From: Fibrobacter sp. UWH6
GTDB lineage: Bacteria > Fibrobacterota > Fibrobacteria > Fibrobacterales > Fibrobacteraceae
DNA length: 64,000 bases
Direction of reading: 5' to 3'
Assembly: GCF_900142465.1 (NCBI RefSeq)
Contig: NZ_FRAX01000006.1
Location: 124,001 to 188,000, forward strand
Below the pieces are notes generated by a model. It did not search any database and was not told the origin of the DNA. It was given only the letters and a program-made list of their open reading frames with translations. This document shows, one piece after another, positions 39,519 to 51,261 of this stretch (the first letter of the stretch is position 1; each line of letters begins with the position of its first letter). The position numbers and the translations under genes are program-made.

Positions 39519-42413
39519 ATGGCGGTGACGTTGGAATCTCTAAAAAAGTCTGTAGGCAAGAAAAACAGTAAGTCCAAGATTTTTGCCTGGCTTGCCGATA
39601 TGGAACTTGCTGCAGGTGATTTGGACACTGCTCTTCAGAGAGTCAACGGTGGTTTGACCCTTTATCCTGGTGATATTGCGGCTAGACTTGTTCGTTCCAA
39701 GATTCTCTTTCAGAAAGAAGAATTTGAAGATTGCGTACAGGAATGCACCAACATTCTTGTGATGGATCCGTTTAACCTGGCTGCCCAAAAGATTATGGGC
39801 GACGCTTATGATCGCCTGGGAAATGTCGCCGAACGTAACCGCTGCTACCGTCGCTACCATGACATGGATCCCCTGAACAAGTTCTGGAAGGATGAATACG
39901 ATGTCATTCCTGAGGCTGCAGTCGTGGCCGAAGCCGCTGCTGTTGCTGGCGCCGCTACCGAAGAAGTTTCTGGTGGCTTTGACGTTCCGTCTGATGGTGA
40001 CGATTCTCTGAACTTCAATCTTTCTGATGCCCTGTCATCCGGAAATGATGATGAATCCTCCGATGGTGGTCTTTTCGAAAAATCCAATTCTAATACTGGA
40101 CTCTTTAGCGGTCCTGATGATTCTGCTGACGATGAATCTCTTGGGGGAGGCTTGTTTGAAAAGTCTAACTCCGGTGGCCGCTCCTTTGAAAAGGCCTTTG
40201 GTGAAGCTTTCGGCGAAACCTCTGACGATGATGTTGCTTCTGAAAGCATGGGTTCGTCGGGTTTGTTCAGCTCCGGTATGCAGGAGGATGACGCTCCTGC
40301 AGAACAGTCTTCCTCTTTTGGTTTTGGCTTTGCTTCAGAGAGCAGTTCGTCTAACGATGATGATCCGTTTGCTGCTCTTGCCGCCATGCTTCCGAACAGC
40401 GATTCCGGTGATGATGCCGCAATCGATGAACTGACTGCTTCGCTTGATTCTGTTATGGATTCCATTAGGGCTGACGATGATATCGATAAGCCCATTGAAG
40501 AATTCCCTGCAGATGACAATGTTTCCGGCAACGATGTTAATGCCGCCCTGTCGGATATGTTCGGCCTAGATGATGATCTTGAAGCCGAAGAAATGCCTGC
40601 TCCCAAGGCTGCTGATTTCTCTGCATCTGTTGTGGATGAAGCTGCCGAAGCAAATGCATCCAAGATTTTTGAAAGCCAGTCTACAGCTTCTGCTGACAAG
40701 CCCCTGAGTGTAGATGACGCCTTCGATTCTATTTTCGGTGAAGATGAACTTCCTGAAGAATTCGGTTCCGCACCTGCAGCCTCTGCTGCAGCTCCTGCCG
40801 CTCCGGCACCCGTAGAACCGGCTGCCGAAGAATCTTCCTTGTTTGAAAAGTCATCTTCTTTTGCCGATGATTCCTTCTCTTCTTTGACTTCCTTCGAAGA
40901 ACCCGCTGCACCTGCAGCTCTGGAAGAACCTGCCGCTCCGGCTGCACCTGCCGCAGACAAGCCCTTGAGCGTGGACGATGCCTTTGATTCTATTTTCGGC
41001 GAAGATGAACTTCCTGATGAATTTGGTTCTGCACCTGCCGCTCCGGCTGCACCTGTTGAAGCCGCAGCACCTGTAGAAACAATTGCTCCTGCTGCCGAAC
41101 TTGCTGACGAGCCGGCTGGTTTCTCGATGTTTGAAAAGTCCGCCGATGCAGACTTTAGCACTACATCTCTGGATTCCATGTCAGACGAACCTCTGTCTGA
41201 ATCTATTTCCGCTTTGTCTGATATTCCTGCCGTACCGGAGGCTCCGGTCGCAGCCGCTCCCGCTGCCGATAAGCCTGTGAGCGTGGATGACGCCTTTGGA
41301 TCTATTTTCGGTGAAGATGAACTTCCCGAAGAAAATCTCTTTGAAAAGTCCAGCGAATCATCTGAACTGTCTCTTGGCGGTGATGACAATCTCTCCTTCG
41401 ACGCTCCGGTTGACATGCTTGCCGAAGGTCAGGCTGAACAAGCTGCAGAAGAAACATTTGAAGTTCCTGCCCTAGAAACTACCGAAGAACCGAAGTTTGT
41501 ATCGGAAGTGGATGTTCCTTCCGATCCGCAGATCGCTTCTCCCATGTCGTTCATGGATGACGATTCTGAAGTTGGTTCTGCTTTCAATTCCATCTTTGGC
41601 GCGGATGATGATCTGCCCGAGGAAAAGGCTGAAAATACACTTGTTGAACAAGTTAATTTGGCTGAATCGGAATTGACTATGCCCGAAGCCCCTGTTTCCG
41701 AAAAACAGGAATCTACTGATATTGCTCAGGAAATGGGCGGTGCATTTGCATCCATGTTTGGTGATGACGATGATTTGGATTTGCCTGGCATGAATTCAGA
41801 AACCGAATCGTCTGACTTGAATTTTGAATCCGCACAGCAGCTCACGACTGCCGCTGTAGAAGAATCTCTGCAGAATCCTGCATCGGGTAATTTGGAAACG
41901 GATTTGAATAAGTCCTTCGACAGTCTTTTTGGTGGCGATGATGATTTTGTCGCCCCTGAGGTTGGTTCCGCGGCTCCTTCTGAAGTTGCTCCTGAGGCAG
42001 ACGTTTCTTTCGTCGAAAAGCCCGTTGCCGGAAATCCGGACCTGGCTTCTCTGGAAAGTGAAGTTTCCGGTGCCTTTAAGGGTCTGTTCGACATGGAAGA
42101 TGATGCGCTGACCGAAACACCCAAGACTACTGGCAGCGGCATGGATTTCTTGATGTCAGGTGACTCTGACGATGAAATCACTGCTGGCCTTGTAAAGAAT
42201 CCGGATGCTCCTATCGAAAGGGGCGCACTGAATCTTGATGATAGCATGGGAACTAGAACCTTGGCAGAAATCTATTTTGACCAGGGACTTTATGCCGACG
42301 CTCTCAAGATGTACCAGGAACTGGTTCAGCGTGAACCTGGTGATCGGGAACTTGCGGCCCGTAAGGATGAAATTGAAAAGATTTTCCGTGACAAGTTTGG
42401 AGGTAACACCTAA
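39519..42413 (+). CDS. Large acidic repeat protein with TPR-like ends and recurring FGxDD and FEKS motifs
   Basis: A 964-residue, very acidic protein rich in Ala, Ser, Asp, Glu and Pro. The N-terminal 120 residues form TPR-like helices (KSKIFAWLADMELAAGDLDTALQRV). The C-terminal 60 residues form another TPR-like pair (GTRTLAEIYFDQGLYADALKMYQ). The long middle is predicted to be disordered and carries two recurring motifs. One is a core like AFxSIFGEDELPEE at about residues 340, 398, 485, 588, 685, 740, 796 and 850; the last four are about 55 residues apart. The other is LFEKS at about 183, 212, 441, 537 and 607. It looks like a scaffold with several binding sites for partner proteins. It overlaps pilT by one base, so a role in the same surface-motility or secretion apparatus is likely. 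No signal peptide is visible. Confidence 0.65.
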   Translation: MAVTLESLKKSVGKKNSKSKIFAWLADMELAAGDLDTALQRVNGGLTLYPGDIAARLVRSKILFQKEEFEDCVQECTNILVMDPFNLAAQKIMGDAYDRLGNVAERNRCYRRYHDMDPLNKFWKDEYDVIPEAAVVAEAAAVAGAATEEVSGGFDVPSDGDDSLNFNLSDALSSGNDDESSDGGLFEKSNSNTGLFSGPDDSADDESLGGGLFEKSNSGGRSFEKAFGEAFGETSDDDVASESMGSSGLFSSGMQEDDAPAEQSSSFGFGFASESSSSNDDDPFAALAAMLPNSDSGDDAAIDELTASLDSVMDSIRADDDIDKPIEEFPADDNVSGNDVNAALSDMFGLDDDLEAEEMPAPKAADFSASVVDEAAEANASKIFESQSTASADKPLSVDDAFDSIFGEDELPEEFGSAPAASAAAPAAPAPVEPAAEESSLFEKSSSFADDSFSSLTSFEEPAAPAALEEPAAPAAPAADKPLSVDDAFDSIFGEDELPDEFGSAPAAPAAPVEAAAPVETIAPAAELADEPAGFSMFEKSADADFSTTSLDSMSDEPLSESISALSDIPAVPEAPVAAAPAADKPVSVDDAFGSIFGEDELPEENLFEKSSESSELSLGGDDNLSFDAPVDMLAEGQAEQAAEETFEVPALETTEEPKFVSEVDVPSDPQIASPMSFMDDDSEVGSAFNSIFGADDDLPEEKAENTLVEQVNLAESELTMPEAPVSEKQESTDIAQEMGGAFASMFGDDDDLDLPGMNSETESSDLNFESAQQLTTAAVEESLQNPASGNLETDLNKSFDSLFGGDDDFVAPEVGSAAPSEVAPEADVSFVEKPVAGNPDLASLESEVSGAFKGLFDMEDDALTETPKTTGSGMDFLMSGDSDDEITAGLVKNPDAPIERGALNLDDSMGTRTLAEIYFDQGLYADALKMYQELVQREPGDRELAARKDEIEKIFRDKFGGNT

Positions 42414-43522
42414 TGGCAGAACAGGCTCAGCTTCGTATTGAACAGCTCTTGCGCGAAATGGTGAATCGCAAGGCTTCTGATATGCACATTCGCGTGGGTG
42501 TACCTCCGGTCTACCGTATTAACGGTGCCCTGACTAAACCTTTCGACATCCGCGTCGATGGCGGTATGATGGATTCCTTCCTGGATGATATCATGAATCG
42601 TGACCAAAAACTGCGTTTTGAACAGAATAAGGAATGCGACTTTGCTGTGGGCGCCCGCGATATGGGTCGTTTCCGTGTGAACGTGTTCCGTCAGCGCGGT
42701 TCCATCGCTATCGTTATCCGTCATATTAAGGCAAAGATTCCTCCCTTCGAAGAACTGCACTTGCCTGAAATCATCAAGAAGTTGGCTTTGACCAAGCGCG
42801 GCCTTATTCTGGTGACGGGTACGACGGGTTCTGGTAAGTCTACCACCTTGGCTTCTATGCTGGATTACATTAACCAGAGCGAAGCGGTGAACATCATTAC
42901 CGTTGAAGATCCTATCGAATACCTCTATAAGGATAACGTCGCCATTATTTCTCAGCGTGAAATTGGCGTAGATACCCTTTCTTATGCGAATGCCCTTCGT
43001 GCCGCTCTTCGTCAGGACCCTGACGTTTTGCTGGTGGGCGAAATTCGTGACCTGGAAACCATGCAGATTGCCATGACCGCTGCTGATACCGGTCATATGG
43101 TGTTTGCTACGATTCATACCACCAACGCAACTGAAACTATTCACCGTGTGCTTTCTATGTACCCGCCGCACCAGCATGATGAAATCCGTCTGCTTCTGGG
43201 TGAAGTTCTGGCGGGCATTATTTCTCTGCGCTTGCTGCCCACCAAGGATGGCAAGGGTCGTGTTCCCGCAGCAGAAATTCTGGTGAACACCGGTGCCGTT
43301 CGTGAGTACATCCAGGACAAGGATAAGAACGATCTTATTGAAGAAGCTATCGCTGATGGTCATATGCAGTACCAGAGCCAGACCTTTGACCAGGCCTTGC
43401 TGGAACTGTATCAGACCGAACAGATTACCCTTGAAACTGCAATGAATGCCGCTACCAACCGTGATGACTTCGATCTTAAGATCCGCGGTATTTCCGGCAC
43501 TTCTGATCGCGGCTGGATGTAA
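42413..43522 (+). CDS. pilT: PilT-family twitching-motility retraction ATPase
   Basis: A 369-residue hexameric ATPase that powers pilus retraction. It has the N-terminal PAS-like region (ASDMHIRVGVPPVYRINGAL), the Walker A TGTTGSGKSTT, the Asp box TVEDPIEY, the Walker B ALRQDPDVLLVGEIRD and the His box HMVFATIHTTNA. It carries the AIRNLIRE-like helix in altered form (AVREYIQDKDKNDLIEEAI). The gene overlaps the scaffold gene by one base (TAATG). A strong terminator follows. Confidence 0.93.
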   Translation: MAEQAQLRIEQLLREMVNRKASDMHIRVGVPPVYRINGALTKPFDIRVDGGMMDSFLDDIMNRDQKLRFEQNKECDFAVGARDMGRFRVNVFRQRGSIAIVIRHIKAKIPPFEELHLPEIIKKLALTKRGLILVTGTTGSGKSTTLASMLDYINQSEAVNIITVEDPIEYLYKDNVAIISQREIGVDTLSYANALRAALRQDPDVLLVGEIRDLETMQIAMTAADTGHMVFATIHTTNATETIHRVLSMYPPHQHDEIRLLLGEVLAGIISLRLLPTKDGKGRVPAAEILVNTGAVREYIQDKDKNDLIEEAIADGHMQYQSQTFDQALLELYQTEQITLETAMNAATNRDDFDLKIRGISGTSDRGWM

Positions 43523-43708: not shown

Positions 43709-45868
43709 TTAGTTGTAGTAAACGGTGCTTCCGTTGGGGAAGGTGACGTTCTTGCTATAACTGTTGATGTTGCTTATGGTAGAAACCTGGCTGGTGCCTT
43801 GGATGTAGCTGCCGGAAGTAGTGGGCTTGAAAGCGATGCTGGAGTTACCGTAGTAGCCGTTGGTGTTGAAGCTTACGTTGTAGCTGGTGCCCGCCTCGGA
43901 CTTACTTTTGCTGAAGCCGAGAAGTGTCTTTGTGGTGAGTGTTGCTGTGCCGTCAGAGTCGAAGGAACCGCCCATGCCGCCGCTAATCTGGCATTCTACC
44001 ACCACGACGCCGCCGGAAATGGTCAGTTCGCCGTTGGAGTCGATGCCGTCGGTATCACCGGAACCTGTCTTTACGTAGTGTACGCCACCGGTTACAGTAA
44101 GATGTCCGCTGGAACTGCCCATGCCGCCCATGCCTCCGCCGAATCCACCGGGACGATTGCCCCAGTTGTTGCCTCCAGTCTGCGTGCTGTTGCCGGAACC
44201 GTCATTGCCACCAGCTGCATTCCAGCCGTCATCGGAACCGTAAACGTCAGTAACGCCACCGCTGATGGTGATGTACCAGGCCTCAAGACCTTCGTAGGAG
44301 TCCTTCACGTAGACGGTACCGTTTGTGATGCGTAGGGAGGAGTCTGCATGGACTCCGTCATTGCCCTTTGCGGTAATCGTTGTAAATCCGCCGTTGAAGT
44401 CAATATTCAGATTGCTGTGGACGCCGTCGTCGCCGGAAGTCACCGTGTTTTCGCCGCCGTTGATGTAGACGCGGTTCTCGGAAACGATGCCTTTGCCCGT
44501 GGAATTCACCTTGATGGAAGGAACCGAGACGCTATCGGAAATCATCACATAGTTGAAGGCCTGAATGCCGTCATCACCGGCCTTGGTAATGTTGATGGAG
44601 CCGCCCTTGATGCTTACGATGCCCTTGCCTTCAATAATAGTGGTATCGCTTCCGTTTACGGTGCATTCATCGCTCTTGATGCCATCGCCGGAAGTGGCTA
44701 TGATGGTGATGTTGCCTTTTTCAACATCTACGAGGCCCTTGCCCTTGATGCCGTTGTTCTTGGCGGTGACATTGATGGTGGTTTCGCCGCGGAAGCGGAG
44801 ATCGTTGGAACTCTGGATGCCGTTATTGTAGTTGCCGGTGACGTTCAAGGTGCCGGTTCCCTTGAAGGTCATGTCGTCCTTGGAGTAGATGGCTGCGTTT
44901 GTGGTGTCTGTTTTAGTAACGCCGTTGCTGTTGACGTAGGTATGGGTCTTGGTGCGGGTGTTTCCGTCGCTTAGGGTGTTGACGGTTTCACTTTTTGCAA
45001 CTACGAAAGTCTTGCTTGCCTGTTGCACGTAAATGGGAGCGTCTGCGGTGTTTTCGAGTGTGAGACCGCGAAGGTTCAGGTAGACTCCGGAATCTGCCTT
45101 GGGGGAGTTGACGCGGATCTGGGCGTCGGCTCCCTTGTAGCTACCGCTAAATTCATATTCGCCGGCGCAGGTGATTTCTACTTCGCCTCCGTTTACAGTA
45201 ACGCAGCCGTTGTCATTTGTGAGGGTTGCGCCAGATGTAGCGTAGGTAATGGTGGGGGAGTTCCCGTTGGAGGCGGATTCGTAGCTGCCGCTAGAAACGG
45301 CTATGCCTGTAGAAGAGGAGCTGGCGGCCCCAACCGGATTTTCTGCGACGCTTGTGCTGGAAGCGGGAGTGTCCGTACCCTCAATGGGGTTCGTGTCGGT
45401 AGATGGGGTGCCGGCCGTGGGTTGGGTCAAGATAATCTTGTTGCAGTTGGCGTCGTACATGTAGGTGCTGCCATCTGCGCTAGAAATGACAGTGTTGATG
45501 GCGACGGTTCCGTCAACGGGATCGACGCATACTTTGGTCGCCGGAATATCGGGACTGGGATTTTCAATGGACGGATCGCCAGAAGGAGTGGTTTGTGTTG
45601 CATCTCCGATGGTGGCGTTGGTGGTGTTTCCTGCGGCGTCTACAAAATATTGCAGCTGGTTGTTTGCATCGAAGCAATAGGTCGTGTTGCTGGTTTCATC
45701 AAACAGAGAAATCAAATCACCGCACAGGCTCTGTGTGCCGGCTTCGATTCCGCCCTGACCCAGTACTTCTGCAGTGTTTGCATCGACGGAACTGTCTGAA
45801 CAGCCGCCCATTAGACCGAAAGAGAGGCTTGCGAAAGCCGAAATACCCAAAAACTTCCTTGATGTCAT
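43709..45868 (-). CDS. Carbohydrate-binding beta-helix lipoprotein (Cthe_2159 / DUF4353 type)
   Basis: A 719-residue lipoprotein. The start at 45868 gives a signal peptide MTSRKFLGISAFASLSFGLMGGC with a lipobox. A Ser/Thr-rich linker and variable repeats follow (about residues 20-220). Then comes a right-handed beta-helix with many recurring turns of the type NGIKGKGLVDVEKGNITI, GDGIKSDECTV, DDGIQAFNYV and DDGVHSNLNI. This is the style of the Cthe_2159 family, which binds acidic polysaccharides or cellulose. A Gly-rich insert (PGGFGGGMGGMGSSSG, about residue 580) interrupts the helix. It probably displays on the outer membrane. Confidence 0.8.
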   Translation of the reverse strand: MTSRKFLGISAFASLSFGLMGGCSDSSVDANTAEVLGQGGIEAGTQSLCGDLISLFDETSNTTYCFDANNQLQYFVDAAGNTTNATIGDATQTTPSGDPSIENPSPDIPATKVCVDPVDGTVAINTVISSADGSTYMYDANCNKIILTQPTAGTPSTDTNPIEGTDTPASSTSVAENPVGAASSSSTGIAVSSGSYESASNGNSPTITYATSGATLTNDNGCVTVNGGEVEITCAGEYEFSGSYKGADAQIRVNSPKADSGVYLNLRGLTLENTADAPIYVQQASKTFVVAKSETVNTLSDGNTRTKTHTYVNSNGVTKTDTTNAAIYSKDDMTFKGTGTLNVTGNYNNGIQSSNDLRFRGETTINVTAKNNGIKGKGLVDVEKGNITIIATSGDGIKSDECTVNGSDTTIIEGKGIVSIKGGSINITKAGDDGIQAFNYVMISDSVSVPSIKVNSTGKGIVSENRVYINGGENTVTSGDDGVHSNLNIDFNGGFTTITAKGNDGVHADSSLRITNGTVYVKDSYEGLEAWYITISGGVTDVYGSDDGWNAAGGNDGSGNSTQTGGNNWGNRPGGFGGGMGGMGSSSGHLTVTGGVHYVKTGSGDTDGIDSNGELTISGGVVVVECQISGGMGGSFDSDGTATLTTKTLLGFSKSKSEAGTSYNVSFNTNGYYGNSSIAFKPTTSGSYIQGTSQVSTISNINSYSKNVTFPNGSTVYYN

Positions 45869-46098
45869 AATAGCCCTTTGAATTGAGTTTTCCTTACACT
45901 GCCTTGAAAGATATGTTTTGATTGAATTGTCTAGATGAAATAAAATGATGAATTTTATGGTAAGCCTACTATTAAATGGGATGAATTGTTCCAGGTGGAA
46001 CAAAAATGACCGAAATCGTGTTAACGTACTGGTCCCCTAGAAAAGCAGGACGAAAAAAACTAAATTTATGGTCCACGATTCTTGAAAAATCAACATCT

Positions 46099-49794: not shown

Positions 49795-51261
49795 GTGTCG
49801 AATACTGTTTCTATTTTTGATGTTGTTGAGTCGCCCTGGAAGTCTGTGCTGGACTTGGTGCGTCAAGAATGCAACGACTATTTTGGGCTTACTATTCTCG
49901 ATGCAGTCGGGTTTGATGGGGTGCGCGATGGCTATGCACTTCTGACCGTTCCTGACGAACTGCGCGAAAACTGGATCAATACCCATTACGGCGACATTCT
50001 TCGTAAGGCTTTCAGGTCTGTATTCGGCACAGAATTTGTTGATTACCGTATTCGTCAGGTGGCACCCACGGCTCCCGTTCCCGAAATGAGTTTTTCGGCC
50101 CCGGTGCCTCCGCGTCCTGTTATTGCCCGCCCCAAAAAGGTTGTAAAACGTAGACCTAAGCTAAATCTTTATGCGGCCTATACCTTTGAGAATTTTATTG
50201 AAGGTGAAAGTAATTCGACCGCCTATAAGGCTTGCAAATCTGTTTCCGAGAATCCTGGCGACCCTGCCTTGAATCCGCTGTTTGTATATGGCGATTCTGG
50301 CCTTGGTAAAACACATCTTTTGCAGTCCATTGCCGCAAGTATTCAGAAGAATCGTCCCGAGGCAAGGATTGTTTACTGCCACGCCTATGATTTCTTGCGT
50401 GATGCGACAGCAACGGCCAATGCTCTGAAAAAGAAAACGGGAAACGTGCGTGAGCTGGCCGAAGCCTTTCAGGATAAGTACGAAAATTGCGATATCCTCC
50501 TGCTGGATGATGTCCAGCTACTTGAAAGGGGTATTCGGTCCCAGGAACGCCTTGCGATCCTGATTCGTCATCTTCGTGCAGTGGGTAAGCAGGTTGTCCT
50601 TTCCTGCGATTGCCATCCGTCAAAGTTTACCATCGCAGATACCAAGGAAGATGCAAAGAAATGCGTTTCCTCGGGAATCCGCTGTATATCCACTAAGCTT
50701 TTGGCTCCCATTGAATCTTGTGTCGCCGTAGGAATTGATGAACCTGATCTGCAGACAAGAATGCGACTTATCCAGAAGATGGGTGTTTCTGTTCCCTTTG
50801 CAGATCGAGACAGGGAAGAAATCTATAGATTCCTCTCTATTCCGCGTCGTCAGAATGTTCGTGTACTTGAAGGTATGCTTCATTGGCTTGGCGCCATGAA
50901 CCGTTTCTGTCAGGAAAATCTGGATTTGAATGCGGTACGTCGCTTGACTGCACCTAACGATTCCTCTGCTCGTGAGGCGTTGACCTTGAAGAGCATTGCC
51001 GAAACGGTGGCTTTTGAATTTGAAACGGACTTGATTTCCTTGGGGAGCAAGCGCCAGGATGCAGGCATTGCCTTGCCCCGTAAGGTGGCCATGTTCCTTT
51101 GCCGTGAAATGACGACGGAATCTCTCCAGAATATTGGGGCAACTTTCAACCGTGACTACGCCACAGTTATCGCCGCCATCCAGTCTTTGAAAAAGCAGAT
51201 GGGTATCGATGAAAACCTTGCCCGCAAGGTTCAAGATATCCGGTATTTGCTGGAAGCCTAG
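49795..51261 (+). CDS. dnaA: DnaA-type replication initiator, divergent
   Basis: A 488-residue DnaA homologue with GTG start. Domain I (about residues 10-90) ends in LTVPDELRENWINTHYGDILRKAF. The AAA+ domain has Walker A GDSGLGKTHL (residue about 166), Walker B ILLLDDVQLLE (about 233) and EPDLQTRMRLIQKMG. Domain IV reads LPRKVAMFLCREMTTESLQNIGATFN, then NRDYATVIAAI, where classical DnaA has GRDHTTV. The box VII segment that normally reads RLxSRF reads ISTKLL, so the usual arginine finger is not obvious. It is flanked by envelope-type genes and not by dnaN. It could be the sole, drifted DnaA or a second DnaA-like regulator. Confidence 0.75.
   Translation: MSNTVSIFDVVESPWKSVLDLVRQECNDYFGLTILDAVGFDGVRDGYALLTVPDELRENWINTHYGDILRKAFRSVFGTEFVDYRIRQVAPTAPVPEMSFSAPVPPRPVIARPKKVVKRRPKLNLYAAYTFENFIEGESNSTAYKACKSVSENPGDPALNPLFVYGDSGLGKTHLLQSIAASIQKNRPEARIVYCHAYDFLRDATATANALKKKTGNVRELAEAFQDKYENCDILLLDDVQLLERGIRSQERLAILIRHLRAVGKQVVLSCDCHPSKFTIADTKEDAKKCVSSGIRCISTKLLAPIESCVAVGIDEPDLQTRMRLIQKMGVSVPFADRDREEIYRFLSIPRRQNVRVLEGMLHWLGAMNRFCQENLDLNAVRRLTAPNDSSAREALTLKSIAETVAFEFETDLISLGSKRQDAGIALPRKVAMFLCREMTTESLQNIGATFNRDYATVIAAIQSLKKQMGIDENLARKVQDIRYLLEA

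Follow-up and report, generated by a model that had tools for sequence, protein, structure and literature searches.

The stretch of DNA analysed here (the window) comprises 64,000 nucleotides of Fibrobacter sp. UWH6 (contig NZ_FRAX01000006.1, positions 124,001 to 188,000) and encodes, directly upstream of a pilT gene, a long acidic protein that we refer to as the scaffold. The scaffold gene (39519-42413, forward strand) starts with ATG and specifies a product of 964 residues with an isoelectric point of 4.05, in which tetratricopeptide repeat (TPR) ends flank a disordered region of about 720 residues bearing eight copies of one short motif (the cores) and five of a second, LFEKS. A first reading of the letters, referred to below as the original prediction, had described this acidic protein with its eight cores and five LFEKS copies, and the present analysis confirms each of these. 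The features of the locus, all on the + strand, are as follows.

39519..42413, +, scaffold gene: TPR, acidic disordered motif-bearing region, TPR (open reading frame, Pfam, AlphaFold2, orthologues)
39531..39896, +, N-terminal TPR domain, residues 5-126 (Pfam TPR_19; AlphaFold2 per-residue confidence, pLDDT, 80-94 over most of it)
40071..40085, +, LFEKS motif 1, residues 185-189 (sequence)
40152..40166, +, LFEKS motif 2, residues 212-216 (sequence)
40524..40592, +, core 1, ancestral form SGNDVNAALSDMFGLDDDLEAEE, residues 336-358 (AlphaFold2 helix 337-347)
40710..40760, +, core 2 VDDAFDSIFGEDELPEE, residues 398-414 (AlphaFold2 helix 398-406)
40839..40853, +, LFEKS motif 3, residues 441-445 (sequence)
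40971..41021, +, core 3 VDDAFDSIFGEDELPDE, residues 485-501 (AlphaFold2 helix 485-493)
41127..41141, +, MFEKS motif 4, residues 537-541 (sequence)
41283..41333, +, core 4 VDDAFGSIFGEDELPEE, residues 589-605 (no helix in the AlphaFold2 model)
41337..41351, +, LFEKS motif 5, residues 607-611 (sequence)
41571..41624, +, core 5 VGSAFNSIFGADDDLPEE, residues 685-702 (AlphaFold2 helix 685-692)
41733..41786, +, core 6 MGGAFASMFGDDDDLDLP, residues 739-756 (AlphaFold2 helix 734-747)
41904..41960, +, core 7 LNKSFDSLFGGDDDFVAPE, residues 796-814 (AlphaFold2 helix 792-803)
42063..42116, +, core 8 VSGAFKGLFDMEDDALTE, residues 849-866 (AlphaFold2 helix 842-858)
42138..42176, +, highly conserved stretch GMDFLMSGDSDDE, residues 874-886 (LMSGDSDD unchanged in all 11 orthologues aligned)
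42240..42398, +, C-terminal TPR hairpin and capping helix, residues 908-960 (Pfam TPR_14; AlphaFold2 pLDDT about 80)
42413..43522, +, pilT of the scaffold-linked clade (PilT-B), its ATG overlapping the stop of the scaffold gene (TIGR01420, tree)

Architecture of the scaffold

Pfam matches above cut-off were obtained to TPR_19 at residues 30-86 and to TPR_14 at residues 913-947. In an AlphaFold2 model built from an alignment of only three sequences, residues 18-126 and 915-960 have a pLDDT of about 70-94, and 725 of the 964 residues, nearly all located between the TPR ends, fall below 50. Both of the TPR-like caps that had been proposed are therefore TPRs by Pfam and AlphaFold2, the N-terminal cap having three repeats and the C-terminal cap one; the latter is slight and consists of a single hairpin plus one helix. 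Fold comparison of residues 8-121 gave matches to TPR structures with Z scores of 15-17 over about 100-120 residues; the best of these include peptide-bound TPRs, and such matches inform on the fold rather than on the function of the domain. Between the ends, the linker (residues 147-865) contains 24% Asp plus Glu and 2.8% Lys plus Arg.

No signal or transmembrane segment was found in the scaffold, its most hydrophobic 19-residue stretch averaging 1.46 on the Kyte-Doolittle scale and being rich in Ala and Glu, which is not membrane-grade. Pfam searches revealed no LysM domain, and Pfam and NCBIfam searches together returned generic TPR models alone and no named family, alongside a weak match to Tgl in NCBIfam. 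The FimV C-terminal model in NCBIfam was unmatched at E values up to 1, although a C-terminal TPR is nonetheless present, and a PHROGs search gave no match. We found no second copy of the scaffold in the source genome and no published description of the family in open-licence papers.

Repeated motifs in the acidic linker

The core phenylalanine lies at residues 344, 402, 489, 593, 689, 743, 800 and 853, the first copy having Leu in its place, and the [LM]FEKS motifs lie at residues 185, 212, 441, 537 (as MFEKS) and 607; SVDDAFDSIFGEDELPEE is an example of a core peptide and GLFEKSADAD of an LFEKS peptide. The pattern [AS]Fxx[LMI][FL][GAD] occurs 7 times, compared with 0.086 on average and at most 2 in composition-preserving shuffles of the disordered region, and chance does not account for the cores. 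A profile of the cores run against the same genome matched only the scaffold convincingly, the next match having an E value of 0.1. The AlphaFold2 model of the linker has helices at seven of the eight cores, although such helices make up just 17% of its residues, and the linker may be pictured as a string of short amphipathic helices, each followed by an acidic tail. Cores 2-4 are near copies of one another, but cores 1 and 5-8 have clearly diverged, and the repeats are therefore not merely one recent duplication.

Since TPR domains bind short peptides, and peptide-bound TPRs are among the best fold matches, the cores could bind the TPR ends of other scaffold copies, so that the long, acidic, multivalent linker would build a network or condensate into which clients are recruited via other surfaces. 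We regard this as improbable: the AlphaFold2 model docks no core confidently on either TPR (predicted template-modelling score 0.27, weak evidence given the three-sequence alignment), and the lineages without the motif retain both TPR ends, which is not expected if the ends serve to hold it.

Conservation within Fibrobacter and the Fibrobacteraceae

The scaffold is present in 106 of the 111 genomes of the family, and in all 56 of those that are at least 90% complete. In each of 40 Fibrobacter loci the N- and C-terminal modules are located within one open reading frame of 663-1103 residues, and a pilT gene follows on the same strand, beginning anywhere from a 47-base overlap to 5 bases past the scaffold stop. 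The two genes overlap in 36 of these 40 loci, often as TAATG. Linker length varies, and between 3 and 10 strictly matching cores are found per protein.

The cores are under constraint within a fast-changing linker. Among 41 orthologues, mean identity to the window protein is 0.69 for the cores, 0.67 for the N-terminal TPR domain and 0.56 for the C-terminal module, compared with 0.25 for the remaining linker; the motifs are thus conserved in orthologues, loss of which had been put forward as grounds for abandoning the original prediction. Many Fibrobacteraceae scaffolds carry one copy of an older form of the motif (SGNDVNAALSDMFG, residues 336-349 of the window protein) alongside the AFxSIFG form, and their presence in the same proteins ties the two forms together.

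The scaffold-linked PilT clade

As had been noted from the sequence, the scaffold stop overlaps the pilT start, the stop and the ATG sharing one base within TAATG (positions 42411-42415); the pilT start is preceded by a GGAGG. The pilT product scores 448.7 bits against TIGR01420 (curated cut-off 319.1), and its closest solved relatives are PilT proteins (335 bits), the PilU structure 9n32 scoring 298 bits. In a tree built by a quick method, the scaffold-linked PilTs of the Fibrobacterota form one clade with PilTs of Zixibacteria and Gemmatimonadota, which we term PilT-B, whereas the standard PilTs, which also occur in this phylum and often in these very genomes, form a separate clade. Members of the scaffold-linked clade have in common the C-terminal tail NPDDFxLxVRGxxGTSDRxW, variants of which occur in recA-adjacent PilTs of deltaproteobacterial loci.

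Convergent with pilT in the window is a gene (43709-46003, - strand) for a 764-residue, glycine-rich protein of beta-repeat-like character that has no NCBIfam match.

Distribution across the Fibrobacterota

The C-terminal module was detected in 163 of 168 Fibrobacterota genomes. A distant C-terminal module alone could be a generic TPR, and we therefore read 40 loci outside Fibrobacter. The N-terminal module is present in the same open reading frame in 37 of these, the other three being cut by contig ends, and full-length proteins with a linker have 468-1659 residues. In 34 of the 40, a pilT gene follows on the same strand, either immediately or with a single gene in between; the scaffold and one PilT clade are partnered throughout the phylum. 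Outside the Fibrobacteraceae the motif takes the form [ST]GxD[VI]xx[RQ][LIM]xx[LMI]F(G), and across the phylum it can be summarised as [ST]GxD[VI]xx[R/A][L/F]xx[L/M]FG, with variable copy number. Proteins from other Fibrobacterota families and classes have up to 11 matches each to GxD[VI]xxx[L]xx[LMI]F, compared with shuffle means of 0.014 or less.

In several families a single gene, for a pepQ-like peptidase or a carrier protein of accB type, separates the scaffold from pilT. The peptidase and accA/B/C, as well as an ADP-heptose-synthase-like nucleotidyltransferase and FecR-like neighbours, were considered as partners and set aside as housekeeping genes on inspection of the sequences by eye, with no family search made for them. 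The interposed genes, a wider neighbourhood that is itself housekeeping (accC, aroQ) and the recent, near-identical duplication of some copies (cores 2-4 in the window protein; L120, L121) would all be accommodated if the scaffold were simply a fast-evolving acidic TPR protein, tied to pilT by operon history only and with repeats arising as duplications within a low-complexity linker. We consider it very unlikely that this is so, as the cores are conserved and the linkers are not, one motif class is retained by families and classes whose linkers are not similar, and the linker vanishes where pili have been lost.

Association with MglA and natural losses

The source genome (G000) encodes MglA, a polarity GTPase, at C11:79925-80491, with 61% identity to a Zixibacteria MglA, and MglA is present in 138 of the 168 Fibrobacterota. 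The Fibrobacteraceae proteins carry an additional disordered tail of approximately 150 residues, and their genes adjoin a gene that appears roadblock-like, although a Pfam search of a fragment of it gave no hit. Five of six of these tails contain GLFQK[SG]; the sixth (G104) lacks LF[EQ]K[SGA], which is missing from its scaffold too. The pattern [LMIF]F[EQ]K[SGA] was absent from 199,737 residues of other open reading frames, nearly all from the same loci. The occurrence of a rare motif in two disordered chains is suggestive, and would fit both chains docking on one partner.

The Fibrobacteraceae tail (L355, G000:C11:76000-85000; L356-L359) also contains SPF and the C-terminal stretch DDxIELRPYxPKK. 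The MglA tails of the other classes in the phylum are far longer and rich in Pro and Gln, in most cases with an amphipathic KGFxxKxFN-like segment at the end.

In several lineages the motif, PilT-B and/or MglA are jointly absent. Genus g15, with genomes of 2.2-2.7 Mb, has neither PilT nor MglA, and its scaffold of 229-239 residues comprises the two TPR ends with no linker. G167 likewise lacks both PilT and MglA, and G166 has only a standard-type PilT, with no PilT-B and no MglA; each has kept an acidic linker devoid of the motif. Genus g4 has PilT-B beside the scaffold gene, but MglA is absent from 12 of 12 genomes and the scaffold carries an LDxLIxEQLxxKVEDxPDLTxDM repeat instead of the motif. 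At the genus level the motif is associated with MglA (Fisher p 0.0016) and with PilT-B (Fisher p 0.0038).

These losses bear on the possibility that the motifs bind the PilT-B hexamer directly, several subunits or hexamers per chain, and so cluster or tune the motor with MglA taking no direct part. The gene overlap in Fibrobacter, the linkage to one PilT clade throughout the phylum, the lack of the motif in every lineage without PilT-B and the fit of multivalency to a six-fold partner all point this way. We nevertheless consider direct binding unlikely, as g4 retains an adjacent PilT-B yet has replaced the motif, and is exactly the genus that lacks MglA.

At loci L140, L141, L142 and L153 (g4 and g2), where no MglA was found, the motif is largely replaced by an almost perfect LDxLIxEQLxxKVEDxPDLTxDMxSLL, and the L142 scaffold still holds one FDSIFG copy. 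Two scaffolds from lineages without PilT-B (L133, L151) share another repeated motif, [IV]SASAxGMDG[FY]Y.V.GxD.

Likely homologs beyond the phylum

With a PilT of the scaffold-linked clade as query, we fetched 80 named loci, of which nearly all belong to other phyla. In two Gemmatimonadota loci a gene for a TPR-linker-TPR protein precedes pilT by about 2 kb, the gene order reading as X-aroQ-pepP-accB-pilT-accC, and in 13 of 20 further Gemmatimonadota loci pilT follows on the same strand at a distance of 1.6-2.7 kb. Beyond their C-terminal TPR, these proteins have SLDSVFGEE-, FSFDEFF- and DLDQFQAWLKGLK-like motifs, which are of the same type, a short aromatic helix followed by acidic residues, in fewer copies. 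G203, G221 and G264, which have no full-scoring PilT, lack the SLDSVFGEE- and FSFDEFF-like motifs. A resemblance confined to the N-terminal TPR was not accepted as proof that proteins are orthologous, since the same profile gave E 1e-32 for an unrelated protein with many TPRs; the case consequently rests on architecture, operon position and sister PilTs in the tree, from which the Gemmatimonadota protein is likely to be an orthologue of the scaffold.

A candidate orthologue in Zixibacteria proved to be a TPR-roadblock protein beside mglA/mglB and hence a different gene, and the Zixibacteria pilT contig ends too early for a scaffold orthologue to be called. This fusion (L273, G170:C379) adjoins mglA and further roadblock-like genes and is possibly an MglA co-regulator.

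Comparison with known polar and pilus proteins

The claim that no described family has this design holds in the libraries searched, but HubP/FimV provides a clear architectural analogue and SgmX a clear functional precedent. HubP/FimV, a polar hub of gammaproteobacteria, has a long, acidic, largely unstructured cytoplasmic region followed by a C-terminal TPR; HubP contains several imperfect acidic repeats that vary in number between species, and FimV is needed for type IV pilus function (PMC12918733). The scaffold resembles these proteins in its acidic, disordered, repeat-bearing region and also ends in a TPR, which may or may not be of the FimV type, but it lacks LysM and a signal or transmembrane segment, has an N-terminal TPR domain and is encoded with pilT.

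MglA-GTP, acting via a TPR effector, is described as controlling type IV pilus placement in Myxococcus and Bdellovibrio in two accounts (PMC7519303, PMC11580455), the first of which reports that MglA-GTP binds the TPR protein SgmX, stimulating pili, and that the Bdellovibrio TPR protein Bd2492 binds MglA (PMC7519303). By analogy with SgmX of Myxococcus xanthus and Bd2492, as these accounts portray them, the scaffold may be a cytoplasmic TPR protein standing between MglA and the type IV pilus machine, and MglA co-occurs with it in the source genome. To judge from the same material, however, SgmX has 14 TPRs compared with three plus one in the scaffold, is not reported there to contain a repeated-motif linker such as the scaffold possesses, and places the extension motor PilB, whereas the scaffold is linked to the retraction motor.

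The PilF/PilW/Tgl pilotins are likewise TPR proteins of type IV pili, and the weak Tgl match of the scaffold recalls them, but they are TPR-only outer-membrane lipoproteins, whereas the scaffold has a long acidic linker and no signal peptide. The polar scaffolds PopZ and PodJ of Caulobacter have an acidic disordered linker between structured ends and gather clients. The scaffold differs in having no Pfam match to them, many copies of one motif and linkage to a pilus motor. Lacking LysM, a membrane segment and the 14 TPRs, the scaffold is set apart from both HubP/FimV and SgmX, and is best read, by analogy, as combining the logic of the two in one soluble chain while belonging to neither.

A proposed role in pilus retraction

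We favour, as the probable though far from certain function, that of a multivalent scaffold, soluble and located at the pole, through which a polarity module of the MglA type is coupled to a dedicated retraction ATPase. The two TPR ends would join a flexible acidic chain presenting many copies of a short helix (an F-x-x-I-F-G core, then Asp/Glu), which in the Fibrobacteraceae would additionally display the LF[EQ]K motif. This chain would concentrate PilT-B, the second and dedicated retraction ATPase, and position it at pilus bases, its gathering being governed by the MglA/MglB module; in Fibrobacter, synthesis of the scaffold and PilT-B is translationally coupled. The cores and LFEKS motifs presumably bind PilT-B, MglA/MglB or a shared pilus protein; a polar location is what we would expect, and the scaffold may either raise or restrain retraction. 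The original prediction is borne out in part, the short, regularly spaced motifs being conserved and the association with pilT genuine and very old, but the motif tracks MglA as well as PilT-B, and LF[EQ]K is common to the MglA tail, so that MglA or a third partner common to both is an equally good candidate for what the motifs bind.

Several observations weigh against the coupling of MglA to PilT-B through the scaffold. Six of the 40 distant loci have no nearby pilT, two of which (G144 and G150) belong to genomes with a PilT-B-like gene elsewhere. G153 has MglA and PilT-B but barely a motif, and in G150 (93% complete) there are five motifs and MglA was not found. LFEKS is poorly kept by position, with a mean identity of 0.31 among the 41 orthologues, because the positions of the motif move about. 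The genus-level Fisher tests of the motif against MglA and PilT-B ignore common descent and amount to three or four parallel losses, and they rest on draft genomes and on motif patterns chosen after inspection of the data.

More tentatively, the scaffolds of Fibrobacterota and Gemmatimonadota, and perhaps of Zixibacteria, may constitute a single family of multivalent linear-motif scaffolds with which a Ras-like polarity GTPase, via a motif shared with its disordered tail, brings a dedicated retraction ATPase together at pili. Elsewhere in the window, a DnaA-like protein of 488 residues (49795-51261, + strand; 291 bits against TIGR00362, cut-off 343.9) is either a divergent or a second DnaA.

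Type IV pili have been reported to aid attachment of Fibrobacter succinogenes to cellulose (PMC4704652). The timing and siting of pilus retraction are open questions outside a few proteobacteria, and the scaffold offers a specific candidate hub for the Fibrobacterota. The analysis also marks out a separate PilT paralogue with its own partner, and the joint loss of the motif, PilT-B and MglA in several lineages constitutes a natural experiment. Repeated linear motifs that drift in spacing and copy number around a fixed core have rarely been traced across a whole bacterial phylum; were the wider family to exist as proposed, bacteria would possess a eukaryote-style hub in which linear motifs, a small GTPase and a motor are united.

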